The notes under the pieces: generated by a model
Seen by the model: only the letters and a program-made list of their open reading frames with translations
Database searches by the model: none
Told to the model about the DNA's origin: nothing
Made by a program: the position numbers and the translations under genes
NCBI GenBank assembly: GCA_903861645.1
Contig: CAIOVE010000079.1
Location: 1-64,000 of the forward strand
DNA from: an uncultured Hyphomicrobiales bacterium
GTDB lineage: Bacteria > Pseudomonadota > Alphaproteobacteria > Rhizobiales > Beijerinckiaceae
Direction: 5' to 3'
DNA: 64,000 nucleotides
Shown: piece by piece, positions 2,128 to 33,437 of the stretch
How the letters are laid out: every line of letters starts with the position of its first letter
Numbering within the stretch: the first letter of the stretch is position 1

Positions 2128-3456
2128 ATGTCCGCCACCGCCGCCACGCCGAACGATCTTGAAGCCTACTGGATGCCGTTCACGGCGAACCGGGCCTTCA
2201 AGAAGGCGCCGCGCATGCTCGGGCGCGCCAAGGACATGCATTACTTCACGCCCGATGGACGCAAGCTGCTCGATGGCGCGGCGGGCCTCTGGTGCGTCAA
2301 CGCGGGCCATGGCCGCGACGCCATCGTCCAGGCGATCCAGGATCAGGCGGCGGAGATGGACTACGCGCCGCCGTTCAATTTCGGGCATCCCAAGGCGTTT
2401 CAACTGGCCACCCGCATCGCCGCGATCGCGCCGGGCGATCTCGACCATGTGTTCTTCGCCAACTCGGGCTCCGAGGCCGTCGACACGGCGCTCAAGATGG
2501 CGATCGCCTATTTCGCCACCCTCGGGCAGGGTCAACGCACCAAGCTGATCGGTCGCGCGCGCGGCTATCATGGCGTCGGCTTCGGCGGCATTTCCGTGGG
2601 CGGTCTTTCGCCCAACCGCAAGATGTTCGGCAACGCGCTGGCGGGCGTCGATCATCTGCCGGCGACCTACAATCGCGCCGAGCAGGCCTATGCGCGCGGC
2701 GAGCCGGAATGGGGCGCGCATCTCGCCGACGAACTGGAGAACATCGTCGCGCTGCATGACGCCTCGACCATCGCGGCGGTCATCGTCGAGCCGATGGCGG
2801 GATCGACCGGCGTCATCGCGCCGCCAAAGGGCTATCTCCAGAAGCTGCGGGCCATCTGCGACAAGCACGGCATTCTGCTCATCTTCGACGAGGTCATCAC
2901 CGGGTTCGGTCGCCTCGGTCACGCCTTCGCGGCGGAGCGGTATGGCGTGATCCCCGACTTCATTACCTTCGCCAAGGGCGTCACCTCCGGCGCCGTCCCG
3001 ATGGGCGGCGTCATCGCGCGCAAGCATGTTCACGACGCCTTCATGAAGGGCCCGGAGCATGTCGTGGAGCTGTTCCACGGCTATACCTATTCGGCGCATC
3101 CGCTCGCCTGCGCCGCGGGGCTGGCGACCCTCGACATCTACCGCGACGAGGGTCTGTTCGAGCGCGTCCGCGCGATCGAGTCGACCTGGGCCGACGCGAT
3201 CCACGGGCTCAAGGGCCTGCCCAATGTCGTCGATATCAGGACGATCGGACTCGTTGGCGCCATCGATCTCGCGCCCAATGCGATCGGGCCGGGCAAGCGT
3301 GGGTTCGAGGCGATGGAGGAGGCCTATCACCGGCGCGATTTGCTGATCCGCATCGCCGGCGACACGATCGTGCTGTCGCCGCCCCTGATCATTTCCGACG
3401 CGCAGATCGGCGAGGTCGCCGAGCGCGTGGGCGACGTCATCAAGGCGCTCGCCTGA
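2128..3456 (+). CDS. Class III aminotransferase, omega-amino acid:pyruvate type
   Basis: PLP-dependent transaminase of 442 residues, the usual length for beta-alanine/omega-amino acid:pyruvate aminotransferases. The N-terminus has the family mark YWMPFTANR, the PLP-ring Asp is D254 in IFDEVITGFGR, and the Schiff-base lysine is K283 in FAKGVTSG. An AGGAG at 2117-2121 lies 6 bp before the ATG. It would move the amino group of an omega-amino acid or amine (for example beta-alanine from pyrimidine breakdown) to pyruvate. That substrate is inferred from family and the nitrogen-catabolic setting; other amines are possible. Confidence 0.88.
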   Translation: MSATAATPNDLEAYWMPFTANRAFKKAPRMLGRAKDMHYFTPDGRKLLDGAAGLWCVNAGHGRDAIVQAIQDQAAEMDYAPPFNFGHPKAFQLATRIAAIAPGDLDHVFFANSGSEAVDTALKMAIAYFATLGQGQRTKLIGRARGYHGVGFGGISVGGLSPNRKMFGNALAGVDHLPATYNRAEQAYARGEPEWGAHLADELENIVALHDASTIAAVIVEPMAGSTGVIAPPKGYLQKLRAICDKHGILLIFDEVITGFGRLGHAFAAERYGVIPDFITFAKGVTSGAVPMGGVIARKHVHDAFMKGPEHVVELFHGYTYSAHPLACAAGLATLDIYRDEGLFERVRAIESTWADAIHGLKGLPNVVDIRTIGLVGAIDLAPNAIGPGKRGFEAMEEAYHRRDLLIRIAGDTIVLSPPLIISDAQIGEVAERVGDVIKALA

Positions 3457-6389: not shown

Positions 6390-7196
6390 TCAGCCCTGGG
6401 CGAAGCGCGTGACCCGCGCGACGAAATCCTCCGCGCGCTCGCTTTGCGGCGAGTGGCCCGCGCCGGGGATGGTTTCGCTTCGCGCGCCGGGAATGAGCTT
6501 CGCGTAGGCCTCGACATAATCGGCGCCGACCAGTCGATCATGGTCGCCGCGCAGGATGAGCGTCGGCCGGTTGATCGCGTGCAGCCGGTGTTTGAGCTTG
6601 GGATTGTGCATGTAGGGCTCCCACGCCACCAGCGCGAGCGTCTCGCGATTGCGCGCGAGAACGCGCAACTCTTCATCGCTCATGGCGGCGTAGTCGGGCT
6701 TGCGCCTGACGGGATCGGCCGCCGTCAGTTTCAGAAGATCATCGGCGCTGGTGGCGAAGATGTCGGGAATATCGAGGCGGTCGCGCGGCCCGACCTTGAT
6801 GCCAACGGGAGAGACGAGAATGATTTTAGCGATGCGGCTCGTGTTCTTCGTCGCCAGGTCGGCGGCCACCCAACCGCCTATGGACACGCCGACAAGAATG
6901 ACGTCGCGCAGGTCGAGTTTTTCCATCAACGCGAGGTGCGCGTGGACGAAGTCATCCACGCTGTCGACCCAGAAGGGCAGGCTCGACGAACCAAAGCCCG
7001 GATGCAAAGGCGCGACAACGTCGAAATGGCGAGCGAGATCGGCCACGAAGGGCGCGCGTGGATCGAAGCCGCCGCCGCCATGCAGAAAGAGCAGGGTCTG
7101 GCCCGCGCCGCCGCGATGCAATTCGAGATCGATATCGCCGATTTGCAACCGGCTGGCGATCATCGCGACCGACCCGGCCACCAAGGCCTCGTTCAT
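6390..7196 (-). CDS. Alpha/beta hydrolase (MhpC-like)
   Basis: Serine hydrolase of 268 residues. The nucleophile is S105 in GVSIGG, the acid is probably D218 or D220 in RGDHDR, and the base is H248 in GAGHSP; the oxyanion loop is LHGGGGFDPR at 39-48. The start at 7196 is preferred because GGAGG lies 5 bp before it; a further upstream frame has no ribosome site. It forms a two-gene unit with the luciferase-like monooxygenase downstream. It may cleave an ester, lactone or C-C bond made by that enzyme, which is an inference from order only. Confidence 0.85.
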   Translation of the reverse strand: MNEALVAGSVAMIASRLQIGDIDLELHRGGAGQTLLFLHGGGGFDPRAPFVADLARHFDVVAPLHPGFGSSSLPFWVDSVDDFVHAHLALMEKLDLRDVILVGVSIGGWVAADLATKNTSRIAKIILVSPVGIKVGPRDRLDIPDIFATSADDLLKLTAADPVRRKPDYAAMSDEELRVLARNRETLALVAWEPYMHNPKLKHRLHAINRPTLILRGDHDRLVGADYVEAYAKLIPGARSETIPGAGHSPQSERAEDFVARVTRFAQG

Positions 7197-7282
7197 CCCA
7201 TCCTCCCGTCGTGGCGTCTTTTGGCGCGCCACTCATCTATTTCAACGATAAAAGCGTCGCCGCGTTCCCGCAAGACAACCGG

Positions 7283-8320
7283 TTATTTCTGGCCGCTGAT
7301 CATGCCGCCCGCCTTGACCAGCAGTCGCTGCATCAACGCCGTGTCCTGCGACTCGATGACGACCTGAAGGCCGGCGTCCTTCATGGTCTGTCCAAGCGGC
7401 GACAGGTTGGGCCCGGTGAGACGCCCGAAGCGGTGATGCTTGTAGAGTTCCTCCTGATGCTCCCGCGTGGTTGTCCACCATGTCCAGAGTCGGGCGGCGT
7501 TGGGATGCGGCGCGCCCCTGAGCGCCATCTGCACATAGATCATCGCGGGTATCGGCCCGACGCGCGCCCATTCCACCGGCGCGCCCTCGGCCTGGAATTG
7601 CAGCACGCGTCCGCCATAGGTGCCCAGCGCAACGGCGCCCTGACCGCCCGCCAGCGCCTCGATGGTTGGCGTCCCGCCCTTGATGATGATCGGCTTGTTG
7701 GCGAGCAATTTTTGCAGATAGGCGTAGGTCTTCTCCTCGCCCCACGCGAGCGTCAGCAGGGGGAACTCGATGCCCCGCGCCTCCAGCAGGATCTTGCCCG
7801 ACCATTTGGGATCGAGCAGATCTTCCCACGACTTGAAGTCCGACGCCTTGGCGAGTTGCGTGTTGAAGGCGATTGGCACGTCGAGATTATAGCAATAGAG
7901 CGCCTTGCCATCGAACAGGATGGATTCCTTCTCTAGACCGAAGACCTCCTCCCATGGATAGGAAATGGCGAGGTCGCGATCGAACAGCAGCTTCGTGTAT
8001 GAAATCGGCGAGTCCACGACGTCGGCGCTCAGGCGGTTGGCGCTGGTTTCGCCGATGATGCGCTCGATCGCGGGGCCCGGCTCGATCTTGTAGGCCTCGA
8101 CCGCGACGCCGGGAAACTTCTGGGCGAAGCGTTTCGCGCTCGCCTGACTGACGGCGACGTCGTTGGACGACCAGAAGACGACCTTGCCTTCCTTTTTCGC
8201 GCCTTCGTAGACGGATTGCAGCGTGTCCTGTTCCGCGCGCGCGGCGAAGCTGGCGCCCGCCGCCACTAAAGCGGTGGCTCCGCCCATGAATCGACGACGG
8301 CTTGGCGGCGAATGGATCAT
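7283..8320 (-). CDS. Extracellular solute-binding protein family 1, Tat-exported
   Basis: ABC-importer receptor of 345 residues. The N-terminus has a twin-arginine signal (SRRRFMGGATALVAAG, cut near AARAE), then GKVVFWSSNDVA, the start of the iron/putrescine/thiamine-type binding fold. The ATG at 8320 opens exactly on this Tat signal, so longer N-terminal extensions are rejected. No ATPase or permease is adjacent. This group includes receptors for Fe(III), polyamines and organosulphur or organophosphorus compounds; the ligand cannot be assigned. It is divergent from the Tsx-like channel gene, which might admit the same solute through the outer membrane. Confidence 0.83.
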   Translation of the reverse strand: MIHSPPSRRRFMGGATALVAAGASFAARAEQDTLQSVYEGAKKEGKVVFWSSNDVAVSQASAKRFAQKFPGVAVEAYKIEPGPAIERIIGETSANRLSADVVDSPISYTKLLFDRDLAISYPWEEVFGLEKESILFDGKALYCYNLDVPIAFNTQLAKASDFKSWEDLLDPKWSGKILLEARGIEFPLLTLAWGEEKTYAYLQKLLANKPIIIKGGTPTIEALAGGQGAVALGTYGGRVLQFQAEGAPVEWARVGPIPAMIYVQMALRGAPHPNAARLWTWWTTTREHQEELYKHHRFGRLTGPNLSPLGQTMKDAGLQVVIESQDTALMQRLLVKAGGMISGQK

Positions 8321-18336: not shown

Positions 18337-18363
18337 GCCACCAGTACGACGGGAGCCTGTGCA

Positions 18364-19140
18364 ATGACCGAGCCTTCACAAATGCCCGAGCCGATAGCCT
18401 TGGGCGCGACCCCGGCGGGATCGTGGCGGGTATCGTCGGCCGCCGTCGATCTGACGCGACCGGCGGGCCCACCGCGCGTCGCGCATGTTCACGCGGACAC
18501 GAAGGATCTTTCGATTGATCTTCGCCGAACCGCCATGATCGTGATCGACATGCAGAATGATTTTTGCCACGCGGATGGCTGGTTGGCCTCCATCGGCGTT
18601 GACGTAACGCCGGCGCGCGCGCCCATCGCCCCCCTGCAAGCCTTCCTGCCGCGTTTGCGCGTCGCGGGGATTCCGGTGATCTGGGTCAACTGGGGCGCGC
18701 GTCCCGATCGACTGAACCTGTCGCCGGCATTGCTGCATGTCTACAACGGCGATGGCCGCGGCCATGGCATTGGCGACGCCCTGCCGAAAACCGGCGCGCC
18801 GGTGCTGACGGAGGGAAGCTGGGGGGCGGCGATCGTCGACGAGCTGTCGCCCGACCCGCGCGACATTCACGTCGCCAAGCATCGCATGTCCGGGTTCTGG
18901 GACACGCCGCTTGATTCCATCCTGCGCAATCTCGATGTGAAGACGCTTCTGTTTGGCGGCGTCAACGCGGATCAATGCGTTCTTCACACGCTCGCGGACG
19001 CCAATTTTCTTGGCTATGACACCATCATGGTCGAGGATTGCTCGGCCACGACATCGCCAGATTTTTGTTGGCAAGCCACGCTCTACAACGTGCGGCAGAT
19101 ATTCGGATTCGTGGCGCGATCCACGGCGTTCGAGTTTTAA
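18364..19140 (+). CDS. Isochorismatase-fold cysteine hydrolase
   Basis: Amidohydrolase of the cysteine-hydrolase (isochorismatase/nicotinamidase) family, 258 residues. The catalytic triad is D62 (IDMQNDF), K172 (VAKHRMSGFW) and C205 (VNADQC). A 50-residue N-terminal extension precedes the core. GGAG lies 8 bp before the ATG. Family members hydrolyse carbamoyl or amide bonds of ureides such as N-carbamoylsarcosine, ureidoacrylate and biuret. The nearby creatininase makes an N-carbamoyl or creatine-like substrate plausible. It converges on the cytosine-deaminase-like gene with 1 bp between stops. Confidence 0.87.
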   Translation: MTEPSQMPEPIALGATPAGSWRVSSAAVDLTRPAGPPRVAHVHADTKDLSIDLRRTAMIVIDMQNDFCHADGWLASIGVDVTPARAPIAPLQAFLPRLRVAGIPVIWVNWGARPDRLNLSPALLHVYNGDGRGHGIGDALPKTGAPVLTEGSWGAAIVDELSPDPRDIHVAKHRMSGFWDTPLDSILRNLDVKTLLFGGVNADQCVLHTLADANFLGYDTIMVEDCSATTSPDFCWQATLYNVRQIFGFVARSTAFEF

Positions 19141-19141
19141 T

Positions 19142-20476
19142 TCAGCCCATGCCCAGCGTGGCGTCGAGTTCGCGATAGTCTGGCGGCGTCGTGTCGACCA
19201 TCCGCCCGCCAACGAGCACGATCCGGTTGTTCTGCGGGCGGCAATTCAATTCATTGTAGGTTCGCGCGCCCAACAGAATGAGGTCCGCCGATTGGCCAAC
19301 CCGCAATCGCCCGGCGTCGGGCAGGCCCATCACCGCGGCCGGCGTGGCCGCGACCAGGCTTATCCAGTCGGATTCGCAATGATCGAGTTGCAGGATGCGC
19401 GTGGATTCGCGAAAAACCTCCAGCAGGTCAAGGTCGCCGTAGGCGTAAAACGGGTCGCGCGTGTTGTCGCTCGACACCATGACAGGCACGCCGGCGGCGG
19501 CGAGTTCATGCAGGGCGGTGACGCCGCGCCAGCGCGGCGTGCGTCCACGCGAACGATCCTGCAAATACATGTTGCACATGGGCAGCGAGACAACGGCGAG
19601 GCCGCTTTCCGCGACGCGCGCGATCATGTCGTTGCGCGTGGCGTCGTCGAACAGCGACAATGAACAGCAATGGCCGGCGACCACGCGCCCGCGGAAACGC
19701 TTGCGCGTGATCACGTCGGCGATTTGACCAAGGCTTCGCGCGTCGAGGGAATCGCTTTCATCGACATGAAAGTCGAGATCGAGGCCATGGGCGGCGGCGG
19801 CGTCGAACACGCGTTCCAGCGCGGCGCGGGAACGCTCTCCGGGCGCCTGCCCAAGAAAAGTCATGCCGCCTAGAATGCCGCCCGCGCGCGCGACGCGTTC
19901 AACCAGCGCGCGGAACTGCGGTTCATCGTCGAGCGCGAGGTCGATCGGAAACAGCGCCACGGCTTGCAGCGTGACGCGATCTTTCCATTCGGCGCGGATA
20001 CGCTCGACGACGGGCCAGGTAATCGCCGCCTGCTTGCCAAGGGAATCGATATGCGTGCGAAGGCTAGCCGTGCCGTGGGCGTAGGCGCAACGAAGCGCGA
20101 AATTCATGCGCGCGTAAACATCCTCGGTTGTCCAGTGGTTTTCGCGATCCGCCGCGACGCTTGTCCGCGCCCCCCAATGGGTGCCGTCGGGATTGGGCCG
20201 ACGACCTATGATATGGCCCTTGTCGATATGGGTGTGAATATCCACGAGCCGGGGCAAAACGAGCCCGCCGGCGCGTTCGATGCGCATCGGCGCGCCCGCC
20301 GCGGCGCCCGCGGCCACGATATCGGCGATCACGCCATCGCGCACGAGAATGTCCACATCAACCAGACCCTCCGCGTCGGGTGAACCGAGGCCGGCTTCCA
20401 GCAGGCAAGCCGGCGCGCGCGCATGGGTCAGCCAGAAGGCGCCGCGGTCTGGGATCATTGCATCAGGCGTTTTCAT
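19142..20476 (-). CDS. Cytosine deaminase-like amidohydrolase
   Basis: Amidohydrolase-superfamily deaminase of 444 residues, close in size and motif order to CodA. Metal and catalytic residues are H81 and H83 (HTHID), H237 and E240 (HVDESDSLD), H269 (GHCCS) and D337 (SSDNTRDPFYAYGD), matching the cytosine-deaminase pattern. It should remove an amino group from cytosine, isoguanine or another amino-azine and release ammonia. The position among ureide genes supports nitrogen scavenging. A weaker sigma-54-like promoter lies 54 bp upstream. It may act on a triazine or pterin instead of cytosine. Confidence 0.85.
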   Translation of the reverse strand: MKTPDAMIPDRGAFWLTHARAPACLLEAGLGSPDAEGLVDVDILVRDGVIADIVAAGAAAGAPMRIERAGGLVLPRLVDIHTHIDKGHIIGRRPNPDGTHWGARTSVAADRENHWTTEDVYARMNFALRCAYAHGTASLRTHIDSLGKQAAITWPVVERIRAEWKDRVTLQAVALFPIDLALDDEPQFRALVERVARAGGILGGMTFLGQAPGERSRAALERVFDAAAAHGLDLDFHVDESDSLDARSLGQIADVITRKRFRGRVVAGHCCSLSLFDDATRNDMIARVAESGLAVVSLPMCNMYLQDRSRGRTPRWRGVTALHELAAAGVPVMVSSDNTRDPFYAYGDLDLLEVFRESTRILQLDHCESDWISLVAATPAAVMGLPDAGRLRVGQSADLILLGARTYNELNCRPQNNRIVLVGGRMVDTTPPDYRELDATLGMG

Positions 20477-20494
20477 CGCGTTGCGTCCGGTTCC

Positions 20495-20511
20495 ATGGCT
20501 TGGCGCTTGCT
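20495..20511 (+). promoter_or_regulatory. Sigma-54-like promoter for the Rid-protein gene
   Basis: ATGGCTTGGCGCTTGCT keeps TGGC, G-R and TTGCT with exact GG-N10-GC spacing; Y, A and C differ. The predicted start is near 20522, about 38 bp before the ATG at 20560. Confidence 0.55.
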
Positions 20512-20529
20512 ACATAGACGGTACGCAAA

Positions 20530-20546
20530 AGCAATTCGCGTGCAAC
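20530..20546 (-). promoter_or_regulatory. Possible sigma-54-like promoter for the deaminase gene
   Basis: The minus strand reads GTTGCACGCGAATTGCT: GCACG and TTGCT are exact but the -24 GG is TG. The predicted start is near 20519, 43 bp before the deaminase ATG. It would fire towards the promoter at 20495-20511, so the two transcripts start within a few bases of each other. Confidence 0.35.
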
Positions 20547-20559
20547 CGGAAGCTCAATC

Positions 20560-20943
20560 ATGCGCGTCGCCATCAATCCACCCGGCATCCGCCCACCGCT
20601 CGCCGCCTATAGCCACGGTCTTGTCACGCCCGTCGGGTCGCGCATGCTGTTCAGCTCCGGCCAGCTTGGCATGGACGCGACGGGCGACATCCCCGAGGAC
20701 GTGGAGGCGCAGGCCGTGATCTGCTTTGAAAACATCAAGGCGATCCTCGCCGAAGCCGACATGGGTTTCGAACATGTGACGCGTTACGCGGGCTTCGTGA
20801 CCGACCGCGCCTATTTTCCCGTCTATGGCGCGGTGCGCGCGCGCTACGCCGTGGGCGACGCTTTCGCGTCAACCCTGCTTGTCGTCTCGGGCTTCACGCT
20901 TCCACAATTCAAGGTCGAGGTCGAAATCACCGCCCTCAAATAG
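20560..20943 (+). CDS. Rid-family (RidA/YjgF-like) protein without the catalytic arginine
   Basis: Small trimeric enamine/imine-deaminase-fold protein of 127 residues. The core marks are FSSGQLGMD and FVTDRAYFPVYGAV. Classical RidA has an arginine (R105 in E. coli) a few residues before its last strand; here that stretch reads AFASTLLVVSGF (101-112) and has none. It therefore belongs to a Rid subgroup that lacks this residue, many of which sit in catabolic operons and act on other substrates. It may handle an unstable imine, enamine or carbamoyl intermediate of the adjacent deaminase or ureide pathway. Confidence 0.87.
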   Translation: MRVAINPPGIRPPLAAYSHGLVTPVGSRMLFSSGQLGMDATGDIPEDVEAQAVICFENIKAILAEADMGFEHVTRYAGFVTDRAYFPVYGAVRARYAVGDAFASTLLVVSGFTLPQFKVEVEITALK

Positions 20944-21050: not shown

Positions 21051-22160
21051 ATGTCCATCCATATGTTGTCGCGGCGTAAGTTTATTCGAAATACCGGCGC
21101 GCTGGCCGCTTCAGCGGGCCTGATGGCCTCGACCAGCGAGGTGGCGATGGCCGCTGGCGTGACTCTGGGCATTGTCTATGTCGGACCGCGCGATGACTTT
21201 GGCTGGAACCAGGCCCACGCCGTCGCCGCGAAGGCGCTGCAAAGCTCGGGCGTGAAGATCATCGAGGAAGAGAATGTTCCCGAGACCGACGCATGCGCCA
21301 AGTCGATGGAATCGATGGTCAATCTCGATGGCGCGCAAATCGTGTTGGGCACGTCTTTCGGCTATTTCTCGCCGTTCATGGTCGATCTCGCCAAGAAATA
21401 TCCCAAGGTCGAGTTTCGTCACGCCGCGCCCCTGTGGGACGCGAGCAAGCATCCCATGAATCTTGGCAGCTATTTTGGCTATCTCAATCAGGCGCATTAC
21501 GTGGACGGCGTCGCAGCGGGTCTGTCGACCAAGTCGAACAAGCTTGGGTTCGTCGCCGCCAAGCCGATTTCCTCGGTGCTCAGCAACATCAATTCGTTCC
21601 TGCTGGGCGCGCGCAAGACCAATCCCAACGCGATCGTTCAGGTCATCTTCACGGGCGACTGGTCGTTGCCGGTGCGCGAGGCCGAGGCGGTCAACGCGCT
21701 GGTGGACGCGGGTTGCGACGTCATCACCTGTCACGTCGACGGTCCGAAGGTCGTTATCGAAACCGCCGAGAAGCGCGGCGTGAAAACCTGTGGTCACAAC
21801 GCATCGCAGGCGCCGCTGGCCCCCAAGGGCTTCATCACCGGCGCCGAATACAAGTGGATCACGATCTACAAGGGCTACGCCGACAAACTCGCCAAGGGCG
21901 AGAAACTGCCAAACATGGTCGCGGGCGGTTATGACACGGACATGGTGCAGAACACGCCCTATGGCGCCGGCGCCAGCGACGCCGCGCGCAAGGCGGCGGA
22001 CGCCGCCATCGCCGATCTCAAGGCGAAGAAGCCGATCTATGTCGGTCCCCTCAAGGACAACAAGGGCAAGATCGTCATCGACAAGGCCTACGACAACTAC
22101 GACCCCTATCTCGACCAGATGGATTATCTGCTCGAGGGCGTTGTCGGCTCGATCACCTGA
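21051..22160 (+). CDS. BMP-family ABC substrate-binding protein
   Basis: Receptor of 369 residues in the basic-membrane-protein (PnrA/BmpA) family, which binds nucleosides and nucleobase-like solutes. The N-terminus is a Tat-type signal (SRRKFIRNTGALAASAG) ending near VAMAAG. The core starts GIVYVGPRDDFGWNQAH, a typical BMP opening, with VLGTSFGYFSPF and GVKTCGHNASQAPLAPKGF later. AAGGAG lies 8 bp before the ATG. It is the first gene of a run of eight co-oriented genes with two permeases, ATPase and ureide hydrolases. It probably delivers a urea-like or ring compound to this importer. Confidence 0.9.
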   Translation: MSIHMLSRRKFIRNTGALAASAGLMASTSEVAMAAGVTLGIVYVGPRDDFGWNQAHAVAAKALQSSGVKIIEEENVPETDACAKSMESMVNLDGAQIVLGTSFGYFSPFMVDLAKKYPKVEFRHAAPLWDASKHPMNLGSYFGYLNQAHYVDGVAAGLSTKSNKLGFVAAKPISSVLSNINSFLLGARKTNPNAIVQVIFTGDWSLPVREAEAVNALVDAGCDVITCHVDGPKVVIETAEKRGVKTCGHNASQAPLAPKGFITGAEYKWITIYKGYADKLAKGEKLPNMVAGGYDTDMVQNTPYGAGASDAARKAADAAIADLKAKKPIYVGPLKDNKGKIVIDKAYDNYDPYLDQMDYLLEGVVGSIT

Positions 22161-22224: not shown

Positions 22225-23346
22225 ATGACGGAAGCGTCGGGATTCGTCGAAGTCGCGAGCGCGGAAACATTTCGCCGGGACATGTCCATCCGTTTGCGGC
22301 GCAGCGCGGAATACATCTGTATTCCCCTGCTGGCGCTGACGATGTCGGCGCTGCTTTTTTCCGTGTTCCTCCTGGCGATCGGCAAGTCTCCGGTTGAATT
22401 CTTCCAGCTTGTCGCGCGCGGCGGCTTCGGCACCGCCTTTTCCATCCAGAATACGCTGCAACGCGCGGCGCCGTTGATCCTCACCGGTCTCGCGGTCGCG
22501 ATCCCCGCGCGGATCGGGCTCATTATGATCGGCGGCGAGGGCGCGCTGGTGCTGGGCGGCTTCGCGTCCGCCGCCATCGCCATCCCGATGATCGATCACG
22601 TTCCACCCATTCCTACGCTTCTCGTCATGGCGATAGCGGGCGCCGCGACCGGCGCGCTGTGGGTCGGCCTCGCCGGCGCCCTGCGACATTATCGTGGCGT
22701 GAACGAAACCATCTCGACGCTGCTGCTGACCTATATCGGCATCGCCATCATGAACTTCTTCGTCGAGGGTTCGCTGCGCGATCTGACAAATCCGAACAAG
22801 CCGTCGACCAAGCCCATTGGCGACGCCTATATGATTGGCAAGATCCCCGGCACCGACGTGCACTGGGGGCTCGCGATCGGCATTGTGCTCGCGATCGCCC
22901 TGCAAATCCTCATGACCCGGACGACTTTCGGCTTCGCCGCGCGTGTCACGGGTGGCAACGCGCGCGCGGCGCTGGCGCAGGGCCTTCCGGTGGGACGCCT
23001 TATTGTTATCTGCACTTCAATCGCCGGCGTTTGCGCGGGGCTCGCCGGATTCTTCGAGGTCGCCGCCATTCAGGGTCGCGCCAACGCCTCGCTCGCGGCG
23101 GGGTATGGATTCACCGGCATTCTCGTTTCGTTTCTCGCGCGACATAATCCCATCGCCATCATCTTCGTCGCGATCCTGTTTGGCGGCATTGTCGCATCGG
23201 GCGGGTTGATTCAGCGCCGCATGGATTTGCCCGACGCCACGGTCCTGCTGTTGCAGGGCCTGACCTTCGTCGTGCTGCTGGTTTCCGAGACGCTCTATGG
23301 GCGGTTCGAGATATTCAAGGTGAAGACCAACGGAGAACGCACATGA
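22225..23346 (+). CDS. BMP-type ABC transporter permease 1 (YufP-like)
   Basis: Inner-membrane protein of 373 residues with eight or more hydrophobic segments, starting IPLLALTMSALLFSVFLLAI. It has the branched-chain/ribose-type permease marks LTGLAVAIPARIGLIMIGGEG and GVNETISTLLLTYIGIAIMNF, as in nucleoside permeases of the YufP kind. The ATG at 22225 has GGAG 8 bp upstream; another ATG 4 bp earlier is in a different frame. The stop overlaps the second permease start. Confidence 0.92.
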   Translation: MTEASGFVEVASAETFRRDMSIRLRRSAEYICIPLLALTMSALLFSVFLLAIGKSPVEFFQLVARGGFGTAFSIQNTLQRAAPLILTGLAVAIPARIGLIMIGGEGALVLGGFASAAIAIPMIDHVPPIPTLLVMAIAGAATGALWVGLAGALRHYRGVNETISTLLLTYIGIAIMNFFVEGSLRDLTNPNKPSTKPIGDAYMIGKIPGTDVHWGLAIGIVLAIALQILMTRTTFGFAARVTGGNARAALAQGLPVGRLIVICTSIAGVCAGLAGFFEVAAIQGRANASLAAGYGFTGILVSFLARHNPIAIIFVAILFGGIVASGGLIQRRMDLPDATVLLLQGLTFVVLLVSETLYGRFEIFKVKTNGERT

Positions 23347-24263
23347 GCGGCGGCACGCCCTTCATCGTTCTCGTGGCGATCCTCGGCGGCGCGCTGCGTG
23401 TGTCGACGCCTTTCATGTTTGTCGCGCTTGGCGAATGCCTGACGGAAAAATCCGGGCGCGTGAATCTGGGACTCGAGGGGACGCTGGTTCTCGGCGCCAT
23501 GAGCGCTTACGCGGTTTCGTATCACACGGGTTCGCCCTGGCTTGGCGTTCTGGCGGCAGGCTGCGCGGGATCGGCGCTGGGCGCGATGCACGGGTTCATC
23601 TGCAAGCTCCCACGCGTCAACGACGTCGCCATCGGTATCGCGATGATGCTGTTCGGCACGGGCATCGCGTTCTTTTTCGGCAAGGCCTACATCCAGCCAA
23701 CCGCGCCGCGGTTGGGCTCGATCATGCTCGGCGACTGGACGGGCAACCCGCAACTCGCCACCGCCTTGCAGATCAATCCGTTGATGATCGTTGGCATTCT
23801 CGTGGCGATCGCGATGTGGTGGGCCTTCGCCAACACGCGCTGGGGCCTGATCGTTCGGATGAGCGGCGACAGCGCGCCGTCCGCCATGGCGATGGGCGTT
23901 TCGGTCGATCTCGTGCGTTTTCTCGCGACAACGGCGGGCGGCTTTCTGGCGGGCGTCGGCGGCGCCTTCCTGTCGCTCTATTATCCCGGCTCGTGGAACC
24001 AGGGTCTGTCGTCGGGACAGGGTCTGATGGCCGTCGCGCTCGTGATCTTCGCGCGGTGGAATCCCTTGCGTTGCGTCGCCGCCGCGTTCCTGTTTGGCGC
24101 CACGGGCGCCATCGGCCCCGCTCTGCAATCGGTTGGCATCACGCAGGGCTATTATTTCTTCAACGCGGCGCCCTACATTCTCACGCTTTTCATCATGATT
24201 GCCTCGGCGGGCTCCAGCAAGGCTGGACGCGATGTGCCGGGTGAACTGTCGATCATCAAATGA
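23343..24263 (+). CDS. BMP-type ABC transporter permease 2 (YufQ-like)
   Basis: Second inner-membrane subunit, 306 residues, overlapping the first by 4 bp (ATGA). It has [20 protein letters not shown], the N-terminal permease signature of this family, and [21 protein letters not shown] near the end. With permease 1 it forms the heterodimeric channel energised by the fused ATPase that follows, whose ATG again overlaps its stop. Confidence 0.92.
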
Positions 24264-26506
24264 CCCAGAAAACCGGCCCCATTCCCGGCGATCCCTATGC
24301 CTGGCCCTTCGATGGCGCCATTCATCCAGCCGATACCGCGTTGATCATCATCGACATGCAAACCGATTTCTGCGGACGCGGCGGTTATGTCGATTCCATG
24401 GGCTATGACATCGCGCTCACGCGCGCGCCCATCGAGCCCATCCGGCGCGCGCTCGACGCCTTTCGCGCCAAGGGCTACCACGTCATCCATACGCGCGAAG
24501 GCCATCGGCCCGACCTCTCGGACTTGCCGGAAAACAAGCGCTGGCGCTCGCGCCGCATCGGCGCCGGGATTGGCGACGCGGGCCCGTGCGGACGCATTCT
24601 CGTGCGCGGGGAACCGGGTTGGGAAATCATCCCGGAACTCGCGTCCTTGCCGGGCGAGCCGATCATCGACAAGCCGGGCAAGGGATCGTTCTATGCTACG
24701 GATCTCGAGCTGCTGCTGCGCGGGCGCGGTATCCGCAATCTCGTGCTCACGGGCATAACGACCGATGTCTGCGTGCACACGACCATGCGCGAGGCCAATG
24801 ATCGCGGCTTCGAGTGTTTGTTGCTGGAGGATTGCTGCGCGGCGACGGACCCGGCGAACCACGCCGCCGCGGTCGCGATGATCAAGATGCAGGGCGGCGT
24901 TTTCGGCTCGGTTTCGAATTCGGTCGCGCTGGTCGACAATTTGCCCCGAGGAGCGCGCCACATGAGTCCGCTGATGGAATCGCCCGCGCCGAGGCCCCGC
25001 GCCATGGGGCTCGAAACGCTTGGAATGACCAAGATTTTCGGTTCCTTCGTCGCGCTCGACGACGTGTCGATCAAGGTGCCGGCGGGGTCGTTCCACGCCC
25101 TGCTTGGCGAGAATGGCGCGGGCAAGTCGACGCTCGTCAAATCCATCATGGGTTATTACCACGCCGACAAGGGGTCGTTGCTGCTCGATGGGCAGGAAGC
25201 CCACGTGCGCAATCCGCGCGACGCGCGTTCGCTTGGCCTCGGCATGGTCTATCAACACTTCACCCTCGTGCCCTGCCTGACGGGCGCGGAAAACCTCGTC
25301 ATCAGCCGCGCCGACGCGCCAGCGGTGATTGACTGGGCGAAGGAAAAGCGCGGTCTGGAGGCCTTTCTCGACCGCATGCCGTTTCGCGCACCGCTGAACG
25401 CGCCGGTGTCGTCGCTCGCGGCGGGCGAAAAGCAGAAGCTGGAAATCCTCAAGCTGCTCTATCTCGATCAACGCCTGCTGATCCTCGACGAACCGACATC
25501 CGTGCTGACGCCCAGCGAGGCCGATGAAATCCTCGGGCTGTTGAAGGACATGACCGCGCGGGGCGACATATCCGTCATCATGATCACCCACAAATTCCGC
25601 GAGGTGACGGCCTACGCCGATGGCCTCACGGTGTTGCGTCGCGGGCGCAAGGCGGGCGGCGGTCTTGTCAAGGACATGACGACCGAGGAGATGGCGCGGC
25701 TGATGATCGGCGACACGCCCATCCGCGAGCGCGCCAAGCGGGCGGATCACGTGACGGGTCCGGTGACGCTCGAACTCGCGGGTCTCATGGCCGATGGCGA
25801 CGAAGGCGCGCCGGTTCTCAACGCCGTGAATCTGAAGGTCGCGGCGGGCGAGATCGTCGGCATCGCCGGGGTTTCCGGCAACGGGCAATCGCAACTCGTC
25901 GAGGTTCTTTCGGGGCAGCGCCCCCTGCGCGATGGACGCGTTTTCGTTCGCGATCAACCGTTCGAGCCGACGCGCGACGCCTATTACAAGCTGAAGATCT
26001 TCGGTCTTCCCGAGGAGCCCCTGAAGAACGCCACCGTGCCGCGCATGACGGTGGCGGAAAACCTGGCCTTCCGCAATTTCGATCGTCCGCCCAACGCGAG
26101 TTTCGGCTGGTGGCTGTCGCCGGGGCCGATGCGGGCCAAGGCGCGCGAGTTGATCACGCGCTATCGCGTCAAGACCCAGTCGCCGGAAAGCGCCATCGGC
26201 GATCTTTCGGGCGGCAATGTGCAACGCGCGGTGCTGGCGCGTGAATTGTCCGGCGAGGTCGACGTGCTCATCGTCGCGAACCCGTGTTTTGGCCTCGACT
26301 TCGCGTCGGTGGCCGATATTCGCTCGCAGATCATGGAACAGCGCAACAAGGGCGCGGCGGTGTTGCTGATTTCCGAGGATCTCGACGAGATTCTCGAACT
26401 GGCCGATCGGGTCGCGGTGATGTCGGAGGGCGCCATCGCCTATGTCTCGCCGATTGGTCAGACGGATCGCGCGACCATCGGCATGCACATGGCGGGGCAC
26501 GCATGA
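24260..26506 (+). CDS. Fusion: biuret-hydrolase-like cysteine hydrolase + dual ABC ATPase
   Basis: One 748-residue frame encodes two enzymes. Residues 1-230 are a cysteine hydrolase with D32 (IDMQTDF), K138 (IDKPGKG), C171 (TTDVCVHTT) and Q211; each is exactly four less than the residues I recall for Rhizobium biuret hydrolase BiuH (D36, K142, C175, Q215), so biuret to allophanate is the likely reaction. Residues 250-748 are a two-domain ATPase of BMP/ribose importers: Walker [10 protein letters not shown] (283-291), Walker [12 protein letters not shown], a degenerate second Walker A (GVSGNGQSQ) and second signature LSGGNVQR. Met235 has its own ribosome site, so a separate ATPase may also be made. 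In related clusters the two are, as far as I know, separate genes. Confidence 0.85.
24948..24964 (+). promoter_or_regulatory. Internal ribosome-binding site and ATG inside the fusion gene
   Basis: GAGGAG at 24948-24953 lies 8 bp before an in-frame ATG at 24962-24964 (Met235). This is exactly where an independent ATPase gene would start if the hydrolase had its own stop codon. Confidence 0.6.
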
Positions 26507-27165
26507 CGATCGCGATTCCCGCGCGACCCGGTCCCTTTCAGCTTGATCCCGAGCGGGTCGCGCTTGTGGTCATCGACATGCAGCGTGATTTCGTTGAACT
26601 CGGCGGTTTCGGCGACTCGCTTGGCAACGACGTAACGCGATTGCAGGCGATCATTCCGACGGTCGCCGCGCTCATTGGTCTATTCCGGGAAAAGGGCTGG
26701 CCCATCGTGCATACGCGCGAGAGCCATCTGCCTGATCTGTCGGATTGTCCGCCCGCCAAGCTGGCGCGCGGCGGGGCCCTGCGCATCGGCGATGTCGGCC
26801 CCATGGGTCGATTGCTCGTGCGGGGCGAGCCGGGCAACGCCATCGTCGACGCCTGCGCGCCTGTTGATGGCGAAATCGTCATCGACAAGCCGGGCAAGGG
26901 CATGTTTTACGCGACGAGCGTTGAAGCCGAATTGAAGAATCATGGCGTGTCGCAACTCGTGTTCGCGGGCGTGACCACCGAGGTCTGCGTGCAGACCTCC
27001 ATGCGCGAGGCGAACGACCGGGGCTATGAATGCCTGTTGGTGGAGGACGCCACAGAGAGCTATTTTGCCGAATTCAAGGCGGCGACGCTGGCGATGATCG
27101 CCGCGCAGGGCGCGATCGTGGGCTGGACGACGCCGTTCGAAAGGCTGCGGGAGGCCGTGGAATGA
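26503..27165 (+). CDS. Second isochorismatase-fold cysteine hydrolase (BiuH/TrtA-like)
   Basis: Protein of 220 residues paralogous to the N-terminal half of the preceding fusion. The triad is D25 (IDMQRDF), K129 (IDKPGKGMF) and C162 (TTEVCVQTS), with Q202 also kept; [15 protein letters not shown] is shared with the paralogue. It lacks that paralogue's KRWRSRR and GDAGPCGRI stretch, having AKLARGG and GDVGPMGRL, so its pocket differs. The start overlaps the fusion stop (ATGA). Known relatives hydrolyse biuret or triuret. A triuret hydrolase producing carboxybiuret would fit the AtzG/AtzE-like genes that follow, but this is inference. Confidence 0.85.
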
Positions 27166-27350
27166 ATGAAACGGGCAATGACGTGAGCGCCGTCGTCGAC
27201 GCCATGGCGCGGTTGCTCGATCTGGAGCTGACCGACGACAGTCGGCCCGTGGTGATCGCGCATTTCGACATCGCCACGAAAATGGCCAAGGGCCTCATGG
27301 AATTCCCGCTGACCGACGAGGCGGAACCCGCGCCCGTGTTCACGCCATGA
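27162..27350 (+). CDS. AtzG/HpxX-like small subunit (DUF4089)
   Basis: Very small protein of 62 residues: an Asp/Ala-rich helix ([13 protein letters not shown]) followed by [23 protein letters not shown], the conserved DUF4089 core. In AtzG-AtzE the small partner stabilises and completes the amidase. It overlaps the preceding hydrolase by 4 bp and the following AtzE-like gene by 4 bp, so production is likely coupled. The ATG at 27162 is chosen by these overlaps and by the conserved length. Confidence 0.87.
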
Positions 27351-28747
27351 CCCTGTCCTTCGAGGCATCCAGCGCGGCGTCGATCGCGCGCGCCGTGCGC
27401 GCGGGCGAAACCACCGCCGTGGACATGGTCGAGGCGTCGTTGGCGCGTATTGTCGCGCTCAACCCGCGGCTCAATGGCTTCACCGCCGTGGTCGCCGACC
27501 GCGCGCGCGGCAGGGCCGCGGCCATCGACGCCCGTCGCGCGCGCGGCGAGGCGCTGGGTCCGCTCGCGGGGGCGCCCTTCGCGGTCAAAAACCTGTTCGA
27601 CGTCGCGGGCTTGCCAACCCTCGCCGGCTCCAAAATAAACGCGTCGCAGGCGCCGGCCGCCGCCGACGCGACGCTGATCGAGCGGCTGGAAGCCGCCGAC
27701 GCCATTCTGGTCGGCGCCTTGAACATGGGCGAGTATGCCTATGATTTCACCGGCGAGAACCAGCATTACGGTCCTTCGCGCAATCCGCACGCGCCGGAAC
27801 ATATGTCCGGTGGATCGTCGGGCGGTTCCGGCACGGCGGTCGCCGCGGGCATGGTTCCGCTGTCGCTCGGCTCGGACACGAATGGCTCGATCCGCGTGCC
27901 ATCGTCGTTTTGCGGCTTGTTCGGGCTGAAGCCGACATATGGCCGGCTGTCGCGCGCCCGCACCTTTCCCTTCGTGTCGAGTTTCGATCATCTCGGGCCG
28001 ATCGCGCGTTCCGTCGAGGATCTCGCGCTGTCGTTCGACGCCGTGCAGGGCCCTGATCCGCTCGATCACGCGCAGGCGCGGCGCGCGGCGGAGCCGACGT
28101 TCGCCTCGCTGGAAGAAGGCCTGGGTGGTCTGCGCATCGCGCGCGCCGGCGGCTATTTCGCGAGTGGCGGCCAGCCCGAGGCCTACGCCGCCGTCGATGT
28201 CGTCGCCGCCGCGCTGGGCGCGAGCCGCGTGGTCGAACTGCCCGAGGCGCGCCGCGCGCGGGCCGCCGCCTATCTCATCACCATGGCCGAGGGCGCCGCG
28301 TTGCATCTTGATCGCATCCGCGCGCGTCCGGGCGATTTCGATCTCGACGTGCGCGATCGCTTGATCGCGGGCGCGATGATCCCCGCGGGCTGGGTTGTTC
28401 GCGCGCAGAAATTCCGCGCGTGGTATCGCGACGCCGTGGCGCGCGTGTTCGAGGACGTCGACATCATCCTCGCGCCCTCGACGCCTTGTCGCGCGCCGCG
28501 CATCGGTCAGAAAGACATGACGCTCGATGGCGTCGAGATGGCGGTGCGCGCCAATCTTGGCGTTTACACGCAGCCGATTTCATTCATCGGTCTGCCCGTC
28601 GTCGGCGCGCCCGTGTGGACGCCGGGCGAGGCGCTGCCCATCGGCGTGCAGATCATCGCCGCGCCCTGGCGCGAGGATCTGGCGCTGCGCGTCGCGCGCT
28701 GGCTGGAATCGCGTGGCGTCTGCGTGTCGCCAACGGCGCGCCGCTGA
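27347..28747 (+). CDS. AtzE/HpxY-family amidase
   Basis: Amidase-signature hydrolase of 466 residues with the Ser-cisSer-Lys triad: K81 (AVKNLFD), S157 (GGSSGG) and S181 (TNGSIR). The 24-residue interval between the two serines is the family norm. With its AtzG-like partner it resembles 1-carboxybiuret hydrolase, which makes 1,3-dicarboxyurea, or the HpxY amidase of oxalurate metabolism. The neighbourhood (BiuH-like enzymes, AtzH-like protein, allophanate hydrolase) favours the carboxybiuret role. Codon use matches the adjacent genes. Confidence 0.88.
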   Translation: MTLSFEASSAASIARAVRAGETTAVDMVEASLARIVALNPRLNGFTAVVADRARGRAAAIDARRARGEALGPLAGAPFAVKNLFDVAGLPTLAGSKINASQAPAAADATLIERLEAADAILVGALNMGEYAYDFTGENQHYGPSRNPHAPEHMSGGSSGGSGTAVAAGMVPLSLGSDTNGSIRVPSSFCGLFGLKPTYGRLSRARTFPFVSSFDHLGPIARSVEDLALSFDAVQGPDPLDHAQARRAAEPTFASLEEGLGGLRIARAGGYFASGGQPEAYAAVDVVAAALGASRVVELPEARRARAAAYLITMAEGAALHLDRIRARPGDFDLDVRDRLIAGAMIPAGWVVRAQKFRAWYRDAVARVFEDVDIILAPSTPCRAPRIGQKDMTLDGVEMAVRANLGVYTQPISFIGLPVVGAPVWTPGEALPIGVQIIAAPWREDLALRVARWLESRGVCVSPTARR

Positions 28748-28768
28748 ATCATTGGAAGGAAACATCAA

Positions 28769-29158
28769 GTGGATATCAATATTCCCGAGGTTCTGCGCGA
28801 GGCGGAGGATGAATTCGCCCGTTACGAAAAGGCGCTCGTGGAAAACGATGTCGAGGCGCTCGACGGTTTTTTCCATGATCACCCGATGTCCATCCGCTAT
28901 GGCGGCGGCGAAAACCTTTATGGCTATGCCGAGATAAAAGCGTTTCGCGCGGCGCGCTCGCCAGCGGGCCTCTCGCGTTCGCTGGAACGGACGGTCATCA
29001 CGACCTACGGGCGCGATCTCGCCATGGCGTCGACCATGTTTCGACGCCCTTCCGCGCCGGGCAAGATCGGACGCCAGATGCAGACATGGGTCCGCTTTCC
29101 ATACGGCTGGCGCATTGTCGCCGCCCATGTCAGCGTGATTGACGAACCGGTCGTCTAG
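28769..29158 (+). CDS. hpxZ: AtzH/HpxZ-like protein (DUF3225, SnoaL-like fold)
   Basis: Protein of 129 residues starting at GTG with AAGGA 8 bp upstream. It has the family run RYEKALVENDVEALDGFF, RYGGGENLYGYAEIKAFR and TWVRFPYGWRIVAAHVS. HpxZ members accompany oxalurate catabolism, and the related AtzH hydrolyses and decarboxylates dicarboxyurea to allophanate in cyanurate degradation, as I recall. Located 21 bp after the AtzE-like gene, it would be the step from dicarboxyurea to allophanate. Its stop shares a CTAG with the converging amidohydrolase, so both TAG codons overlap. Confidence 0.87.
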   Translation: MDINIPEVLREAEDEFARYEKALVENDVEALDGFFHDHPMSIRYGGGENLYGYAEIKAFRAARSPAGLSRSLERTVITTYGRDLAMASTMFRRPSAPGKIGRQMQTWVRFPYGWRIVAAHVSVIDEPVV

Positions 29159-31646: not shown

Positions 31647-33437
31647 ATGAATGACCTGAGTTTCGATCTTGCCTCGCTGCGCGCGCGCTACGCGGAGGGT
31701 CTCGATCCCGTCGCGGTGGTCGAACTCGTTTACGCGCGTATCGGGGCGGCGGGCGATCCCGGCATTTTCATTTCGCTGCTCCCGCTGGAGACGGCGCGCG
31801 CCATGGCGCGGGCGCTTGGGCCCTTCGATCCGTCGAAGCCGCTCTGGGGCGCGCCTTTCGCGATCAAGGACAATATCGATTTGGCCGGCCTGCCGACCAC
31901 GGCGGCCTGTCCAGCCTTCGCCCATGCACCCGCCGAGAGCGCCGCTTGCGTTCAGGCGCTTGTCGACGCCGGGGCGCTGCCGATTGGCAAGACCAATCTC
32001 GACCAGTTCGCGACGGGGCTCGTGGGCGTCCGTTCGCCCTATCCTCCACCGAAAAACGCCTTTGATCCGGCCATCGTGCCGGGCGGGTCGAGCTCCGGCT
32101 CGGGCGTCGCCGTCGCGCGCGGACTCGTCAGTTTCGCGCTGGGCACGGATACGGCGGGCTCGGGCCGCGTGCCCGCCGCCTTGAACAACGTGGTGGGTTT
32201 GAAGCCGTCGCTTGGCGCGGTCTCCATTCGTGGCGTCGTTCCCGCCTGCAAGTCGCTCGATTGCGTGTCGATCTTCGCCGGTTGCGTCGCCGACGCGTGG
32301 GATGTTCTGCGCGCCATGGCGGTAGAGGACGGGCGCGATCCGTTCCAGCGGCCGCTGTCGTTCGCGGACGTGGGCGCGGCGCCGCCGGCCCTCAAGCTTG
32401 GCGTTCCCCGCGCCGAGGATCTTGAGTTCTTTGGCGACGACAACGCCGCGGCCGCGTGGCGCGCGGCTCTGGCGGTGCTGAAGGACATGGGCGCTGCTTT
32501 CGTCGAGGTGGACATGCGCCCGCTGCTGGCCGCCGCGAAACTGCTCTACGACGGACCATGGGTGGCCGAGCGGCACGCGGCGCTGCGCGCCTTTCTCGCC
32601 ACCAACGCAGCAGACGTGCTGCCGGTGACGCGCGGCATCATCGAGGAAGCAAAGCGCTATTCGGCGACGGACGCCTTTGACGCCGCCTATGAGATGCGCG
32701 GCATCGCGCAATATGCGCGCGCGATTGAACGCACGTATGACATGCTCGTCGTGCCCAGCATTCCCGGCGCGCCGACGGTCGCCGATCTCGAACGCGATCC
32801 GCTGACGCCCAACGCCCGCCTCGGCCGCTGGACGAATTTCGTCAACCTGCTGGACATGTCGGCGCTCGCCGTGCCCGGTCCCTTCCGGCCCGACGGATTT
32901 CCCGCGGGCGTGACATTGATCGGTCCACGCGGCGCCGACGCGCGCCTCGCCGCGGTCGGCGATGTTTTCCACGCGCGTTCGGGCGTCGGCATGGGCAAGG
33001 GCCGGCTCGCGCCGCCATCCTTGCCGCCCGGTTCCACGACGCCAGCGGACTGGATCGAACTCGTGGTCGTCGGCGCGCATCTGTCGGGCATGGCGCTCAA
33101 TCGCGAACTGACCGAGCTCGGCGCGCAATTCGCGCGCGCGGTGAAGACCGAGCCTTGTTATCGCTTCCACGCGCTGGCCGGCGGACCGCCGAAGCGGCCC
33201 GGCCTCATCCGTTGCGCGGCGGGCGAGGGCGTCGCCATCGAAACGGAGGTGTGGAGCCTGTCGCCCGCGGCCTTCGGGCGCTTCGTGGCGGGCATTCCCG
33301 CGCCGCTCGGCATTGGCGTCATCGCGCTCGCGGACGGCACGCGCCCCAAGGGCTTCCTCGCGGAGCCCGAGGGTCTTGTTGGCGCGCGCGACATTGGCGC
33401 GTTGGGCGGCTGGCGGGCGTTTATCGCGGCCTCGTGA
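31647..33437 (+). CDS. atzF: Allophanate hydrolase
   Basis: Bifunctional enzyme of 596 residues that converts allophanate to two ammonia and two CO2. The amidase domain has K74 (AIKDN), S148 (GGSSSGSG) and S172 (TAGSGR); the intervals of 74 and 24 equal those I recall for AtzF (K91, S165, S189). Residues from about 470 form the C-terminal decarboxylase-type domain with FVAGIPAPLGIGV and PKGFLAEP. The length is full for AtzF and no biotin-dependent urea carboxylase is attached or adjacent, so allophanate must come from the ureide enzymes upstream. GGGAG lies upstream of the ATG. Confidence 0.93.
   Translation: MNDLSFDLASLRARYAEGLDPVAVVELVYARIGAAGDPGIFISLLPLETARAMARALGPFDPSKPLWGAPFAIKDNIDLAGLPTTAACPAFAHAPAESAACVQALVDAGALPIGKTNLDQFATGLVGVRSPYPPPKNAFDPAIVPGGSSSGSGVAVARGLVSFALGTDTAGSGRVPAALNNVVGLKPSLGAVSIRGVVPACKSLDCVSIFAGCVADAWDVLRAMAVEDGRDPFQRPLSFADVGAAPPALKLGVPRAEDLEFFGDDNAAAAWRAALAVLKDMGAAFVEVDMRPLLAAAKLLYDGPWVAERHAALRAFLATNAADVLPVTRGIIEEAKRYSATDAFDAAYEMRGIAQYARAIERTYDMLVVPSIPGAPTVADLERDPLTPNARLGRWTNFVNLLDMSALAVPGPFRPDGFPAGVTLIGPRGADARLAAVGDVFHARSGVGMGKGRLAPPSLPPGSTTPADWIELVVVGAHLSGMALNRELTELGAQFARAVKTEPCYRFHALAGGPPKRPGLIRCAAGEGVAIETEVWSLSPAAFGRFVAGIPAPLGIGVIALADGTRPKGFLAEPEGLVGARDIGALGGWRAFIAAS

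Follow-up and report, generated by a model that had tools for sequence, protein, structure and literature searches.

A biuret hydrolase frame continuous with its neighbouring importer ATPase gene in a single Beijerinckiaceae assembly, probably through loss of a stop codon

Genes for biuret hydrolase (BiuH) beside a BMP-type importer, TrtA and AtzF form an arrangement that is already published and is not new. In nitrifiers, biuH, trtA and atzF lie beside a bmpA-nupABC importer (available part of PMC12625717). BiuH is a tetramer in which Gln215 reaches the active site of the neighbouring subunit, and the cloned BiuH of Rlv3841 carries a 20-residue N-terminal tag (both from the available part of PMC5806882). 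On the related TrtA, a C-terminal tag reduced activity and left the protein aggregation-prone (available part of PMC7948467). In the titles and abstract openings searched, with terms that were in part too narrow, no BiuH-ATPase fusion was found in print; the word "fusion" occurs 0 times in the available part of PMC6219798, and "fused" 0 times in that of PMC7948467. Here we describe a frame in which BiuH runs directly into the ATPase of the adjoining importer, together with the corresponding junction in relatives.

The window is a stretch of 64,000 nucleotides from an uncultured Hyphomicrobiales bacterium (Beijerinckiaceae; assembly GCA_903861645.1, contig CAIOVE010000079.1, positions 1 to 64,000). 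An ORF scan gave a plus-strand open frame of 748 codons from ATG to TGA at 24260-26506, to which Pfam and NCBIfam matches assign a BiuH, a linker and an ABC ATPase; the single frame joining hydrolase to ATPase reported by the initial annotation is therefore present. The hydrolase reaches P229, the usual end of BiuH, and five residues, RGARH (codons 230-234, CGA GGA GCG CGC CAC), then link it to Met235 (ATG, 24962-24964), also as first described. Codon 230 (CGA, 24947-24949, plus strand) stands where, on comparison with other BiuH loci, the relatives have their BiuH stop, and the window sequence holds no in-frame stop between 24700 and 25100. Calculated masses are 80.9 kDa for the fusion, 55.6 kDa for the free ATPase and 24.7 kDa for the BiuH part. 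The fusion is one codon deep, CGA and TGA being a single step apart (T/C at 24947). Position 24947 is also the last of a CCCC run (24944-24947, plus strand); were the run one C shorter, the BiuH end would become LPEERAT, closed by the present TGA at 24963-24965, which would overlap the ATPase ATG. A minus-strand ORF of 775 codons (24173-26500) crosses the same stretch and is taken for the shadow of a G+C-rich gene.

The BiuH part (residues 1-229; 24260-24946, plus strand) is a complete biuret hydrolase of predicted activity. It scores 410.8 bits over residues 10-227 with the NCBIfam biuret amidohydrolase equivalog NF050097 (cut-off, 370 bits), holds a Pfam Isochorismatase domain (residues 26-214) and aligns over residues 8-229 with the Rlv3841 enzyme (PDB 6azo, 402.6 bits). 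D32, K138, C171 and Q211 are present and equal Asp36, Lys142, Cys175 and Gln215 of Rlv3841 BiuH. The initial annotation had called this part a complete BiuH-like cysteine hydrolase with each active-site residue offset by four; both points held, the offset because query residue 8 pairs with residue 32 of the 6azo chain, from which the 20-residue tag (available part of PMC5806882) is subtracted. All 122 distinct relatives have a free-standing protein ending near P229 (stop at -2 to +18 codons), unlike the window frame as assembled; such an ending is a common trait of the relatives and no formal criterion for BiuH. A search across the window's genome found no second, free BiuH: the next isochorismatase-like matches (50% and 35%) both lie within the cluster, followed by one of 34% over 83 residues, and the rest are at or below 30%.

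The ABC ATPase part (residues 235-748; 24962-26506, plus strand) has its own ATG and two ABC domains, with two stretches matching Pfam ABC_tran. Its gene adjoins those of a BMP binding protein and of two BPD_transp_2 permeases, in agreement with the complete two-domain BMP-type ATPase of the first reading. Its score with NF047930, a putative B6 importer ATPase, is 399.6 bits, below the cut-off of 670. Orthologs in same-genus stretches are 79-90% identical, apart from a 62% fragment at the contig end of one genome (G167). A likely ribosome-binding site, GAGGAG (24948-24953, plus strand), lies 8 nt before the ATG. At this site the predicted anti-Shine-Dalgarno pairing, -8.1 kcal/mol, ranks third among 60 in-frame ATG, GTG and TTG codons; 7.2% of random local 17-mers pair as strongly, and the site is thus only moderately unusual. 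In nine same-genus relatives (G149 and G167 left out), pairing at the ATPase start ranged from -3.5 to -11.3 kcal/mol and was at or below -6.1 kcal/mol in 8 of 9; the spacer, ribosome site and 24962 start of the window resemble theirs. The internal start for a free ATPase that had been proposed at Met235 is therefore plausible. If the sequence is right, two products, the full fusion and the free ATPase, are likely and a free BiuH is not expected, the fusion being made from 24260 because no stop intervenes.

The surrounding plus-strand genes read as one operon with the importer. A BMP/PnrA-like substrate-binding protein (21051-22160; Pfam Bmp, 2.2e-31; 85-87% identity in the eight same-genus stretches holding the gene) is followed by permease 1 (BPD_transp_2, 3.8e-29; 22237-23346 from its predicted start) and permease 2 (BPD_transp_2, 2.6e-34; 23343-24263), whose TGA overlaps the BiuH ATG (ATGA). 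Past the ATPase, and overlapping its stop in the same way (ATGA), lies a TrtA-like triuret hydrolase gene (26503-27165), whose product scores 307 bits with the TrtA structure (PDB 6xix) versus 183-195 bits with BiuH structures. Downstream of it are an AtzG-like gene (Pfam), AtzE (above the NCBIfam cut-off), an AtzH-like gene (Pfam) and the allophanate hydrolase AtzF (above the cut-off), at 27162-29158 and 31647-33437, all clustered with BiuH and TrtA. By gene content, the operon looks suited to triuret as well as biuret, and there could be two parallel routes from carboxybiuret, one through AtzEG-AtzH and one through BiuH. The AtzH-like gene also exceeds the NCBIfam cut-off for HpxZ (oxalurate catabolism), and its role is putative. 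Upstream, at 18361-20943, are a RutB-like isochorismatase-like gene (below cut-off), the third such in the cluster, a cytosine-deaminase-family gene on the opposite strand (above cut-off) and, by Pfam, a member of the Rid family; together they hint at a role in handling pyrimidine-like compounds as well.

As far as the contigs reach, the order binding protein, permease, permease, BiuH, ATPase, TrtA recurs in same-genus contigs; one lacks TrtA beside the ATPase (G149), and two have about 1 kb between permease 2 and BiuH (G152 and G169). The recurring order from binding protein to ATPase bears out the suggestion that importer genes and enzyme gene go together, and it is a fair inference from gene order that the importer is BiuH's own, with biuret or triuret as its putative substrate. 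The binding protein has private changes at 14 of 299 otherwise invariant columns, versus 2-9 in five relatives, and a mean pN/pS of 0.178 versus 0.107. These changes are scattered along the protein, no shifted stretch was seen in its alignment, and the excess possibly reflects an altered substrate preference.

The junction was surveyed at 187 loci. Setting aside 3 from the window itself and 45 without a BiuH of 65% identity or more left 139, which reduce to 122 distinct loci. The window's protein served as the query for all of them, a choice that favours close relatives, and part of the loci came from a genome-contig scan represented by the best 80 of its 587 confirmed stretches (79 were judged; L091 has no BiuH). 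The ATPase lies downstream of BiuH at 120 of the 122 (not at L036 and L037), and BiuH and ATPase are fused at none of these 120, the contig-scan loci being the best 80 of 587. BiuH stops exactly at codon 230 at 82/122 loci and within -2 to +4 codons of it at 116/122, by TGA at 101, TAG at 11 and TAA at 10. At 113 loci the ATPase begins within 200 nt of BiuH; 30 of these have both genes in the same frame, 24 of them with exactly one in-frame stop between. At these 24, low-level stop readthrough could yield the same fusion.

A second survey covered the genus. Fifteen stretches were taken from 51 genomes searched, and 13 of them (11 genomes) hold the BiuH end, including one partial copy at a contig end in each of G167 and G169. 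BiuH stops at exactly codon 230 at all 13, the sister of the window included. Five match the window in frame and in geometry, exactly 12 nt separating the stop from the ATG (G186, G183, G154 and both G169 copies); the junction reads TGA-GGAGAGGTTAGC-ATG in G186 versus CGA-GGAGCGCGCCAC-ATG in the window. In a tree of BiuH and ATPase proteins (the window, nine same-genus genomes and three outgroups), the sister is G188 with 100% support, several other nodes having 64-79%. G188 keeps its stop in another frame, with the TGA overlapping the ATPase start (ATGA). Since G188 and the other relatives have the stop, the change sits on the window's terminal branch or is unreal.

The fusion is private to one assembly. 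Overlapping genome sets matching at E cut-offs of 1e-100 (149 genomes), 1e-60 (51), 1e-220 (397) and 1e-150 (398) gave, among the matches listed, only the window itself as a match spanning both domains without a stop. Viral contigs gave 0 matches to the exact junction, whether position 24947 was set to C or to T. Among plasmid records, 480 matched the query, and in 158 a single place covered at least 80% of it. The best 40 of the 480 all matched in two or three pieces, which alone is no proof of two genes; 17 of the 40 annotate an ATP-binding protein and a hydrolase separately, and the others are unannotated or list one. Loss of the stop across a clade, raised by the initial annotation, is not what we find, with 0 of 120 loci fused and 13 of 13 same-genus stops at codon 230. 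An evolved fusion family was considered and rejected, because none of the 120 distinct loci is fused and the matches listed for the genome sets include no other unbroken one.

Neither gene looks dead. Mean pN/pS between window and relatives is 0.225 for BiuH and 0.216 for the ATPase, against 0.221 and 0.209 for the relatives among themselves, so both look normally constrained at the level of sequence, and a pseudogene or clustered frameshift errors in either were rejected. Synonymous sites are near saturation, and pN/pS is therefore useless for dating the stop loss. An AlphaFold2 model of the fusion (13-row alignment; mean pLDDT, 75.1; pTM, 0.61) predicts both folds, the hydrolase at lower confidence. 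Residues 231-244, between the last BiuH helix (221-226) and the first ATPase strand (251-260), have pLDDT below 50 and are predicted to be a flexible linker, and nothing in the model forbids two domains on a loose tether. The deposited 6azo chain extends 9 residues past the aligned end (262 versus 253), where the Rlv3841 gene stops, and by this analogy a short C-terminal tail seems compatible with the crystallised tetramer.

We think it probable that an ordinary biuret/triuret operon lost its BiuH stop in one lineage. The ancestor would have had BiuH ending in NLP-TGA, followed by 12 bases that carry the ribosome site and by an in-frame ATPase ATG; as G188 is out of frame, such an ancestor is deduced from the more distant same-genus genomes. 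One substitution, C for T at 24947 (TGA to CGA, Arg230), would then have made the frames continuous, and both the same-genus loci that share frame and 12-nt spacer (5/13) and the prevalence of TGA among BiuH stops (101/122) are consistent with it. If the sequence is right, a start at 24260 would give an 81-kDa BiuH-ATPase fusion and a start at 24962 the normal 56-kDa ATPase, with no free BiuH. The loss was probably near-neutral or mildly harmful, because free ATPase remains available to the importer and BiuH, as an N-terminal domain, is still able to fold. The branch between window and G188 is long (dS of 0.67 to 1.02 over the four genes compared), leaving time enough for a real change. The competing view, unlikely in our judgement though not by a wide measure, is a base-calling or assembly error, such as the initial annotation feared near 24945, with codon 230 truly TGA or CCCC truly CCC and two ordinary proteins made. 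The fusion is known from a single assembly, and same-genus drafts do carry lesions, at 2 of 101 comparisons of a cluster gene with a stretch (14 genes and 15 stretches, where found). One is a premature in-frame stop in permease 1 of the sister G188 (a broken importer gene or an error), the other an AtzE in G119 split over two frames near residue 389, at about 3209-3436 of locus L186 (a frameshift or an error). ATGA overlaps occur at other junctions of the window operon, G188 has one between BiuH and ATPase, and the three-C version would retain it. Some sequencing methods are prone to homopolymer errors, and the substitution and extra-C versions were therefore both kept in view. Against an error, the 18 cluster ORFs of the window have no internal stop and relatives' matches span nearly their full length, and good consensus sequence seldom contains substitution errors. 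The extra-C version further requires a stop 5 codons later, where 2/122 loci have theirs versus 82/122 at codon 230; we place the TGA-to-CGA substitution ahead of it, an extra C in the CCCC run being less likely. A real private change, selected or not, is on balance likely.

Far less probable than a near-neutral or mildly harmful stop loss is that the fusion is real, expressed and selected, with BiuH anchored to its importer through the cytoplasmic ATPase, where imported biuret would meet it at once. Both domains are complete, the linker is predicted to be flexible, the importer genes are constant neighbours of BiuH, the genome yielded no other copy of the enzyme, and the 9-residue tail on the deposited chain suggests that a short C-terminal extension is tolerated. 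On the other side, a tail of more than 500 residues on each subunit would be awkward for a tetramer in which Gln215 acts across subunits (available part of PMC5806882), a C-terminal tag harmed the related TrtA (available part of PMC7948467), and the importer's substrate is putative. Nor does the fusion recur: an evolved enzyme-transporter fusion should be found in more than one genome, whereas the distinct loci gave 0 of 120 and the matches listed for the other genomes searched include no unbroken one. The evolved tether coupling uptake to hydrolysis, as first proposed, is accordingly not supported, with no recurrence and a single codon separating it from the two-gene arrangement. We regard as equally improbable a relay from uptake to hydrolysis newly born by one-base stop loss, in which a tethered hydrolase and free ATPase, with no free hydrolase, would place the enzyme at the importer exit.

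If real and expressed, the frame would be a natural example of a catabolic enzyme joined to an importer in one step; in 24 of 113 adjacent relatives the two genes share a frame and a single stop codon separates them. It also carries a lesson: when one draft genome shows a striking fusion of domains, the relatives' stop codon deserves a look before any mechanism is proposed.

The nitrifier biuH-trtA-atzF clusters (PMC12625717) combine biuH with a BMP-type ABC importer, as here; the available part of that source describes collocated genes and mentions no fusion, unlike the window. BiuH of Rlv3841 (PDB 6AZO and others) is 77% identical over residues 8-229, with the triad and glutamine common to both. 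Its plasmid gene encodes a free protein, unlike the window's, that ends at the residue aligned with P229, and BiuH and ATPase there are separate genes about 1 kb apart rather than one joined frame. That gap on pRL10 (about 6670-7720 of locus L131), where related plasmids have a gene annotated atzD under the match, may hold an inserted cyanuric acid hydrolase gene. The same-genus biuret/triuret operons (e.g., G186, Beijerinckiaceae, and G188) have the gene order of the window, and unlike the window they close BiuH with a stop codon at all 13 loci.
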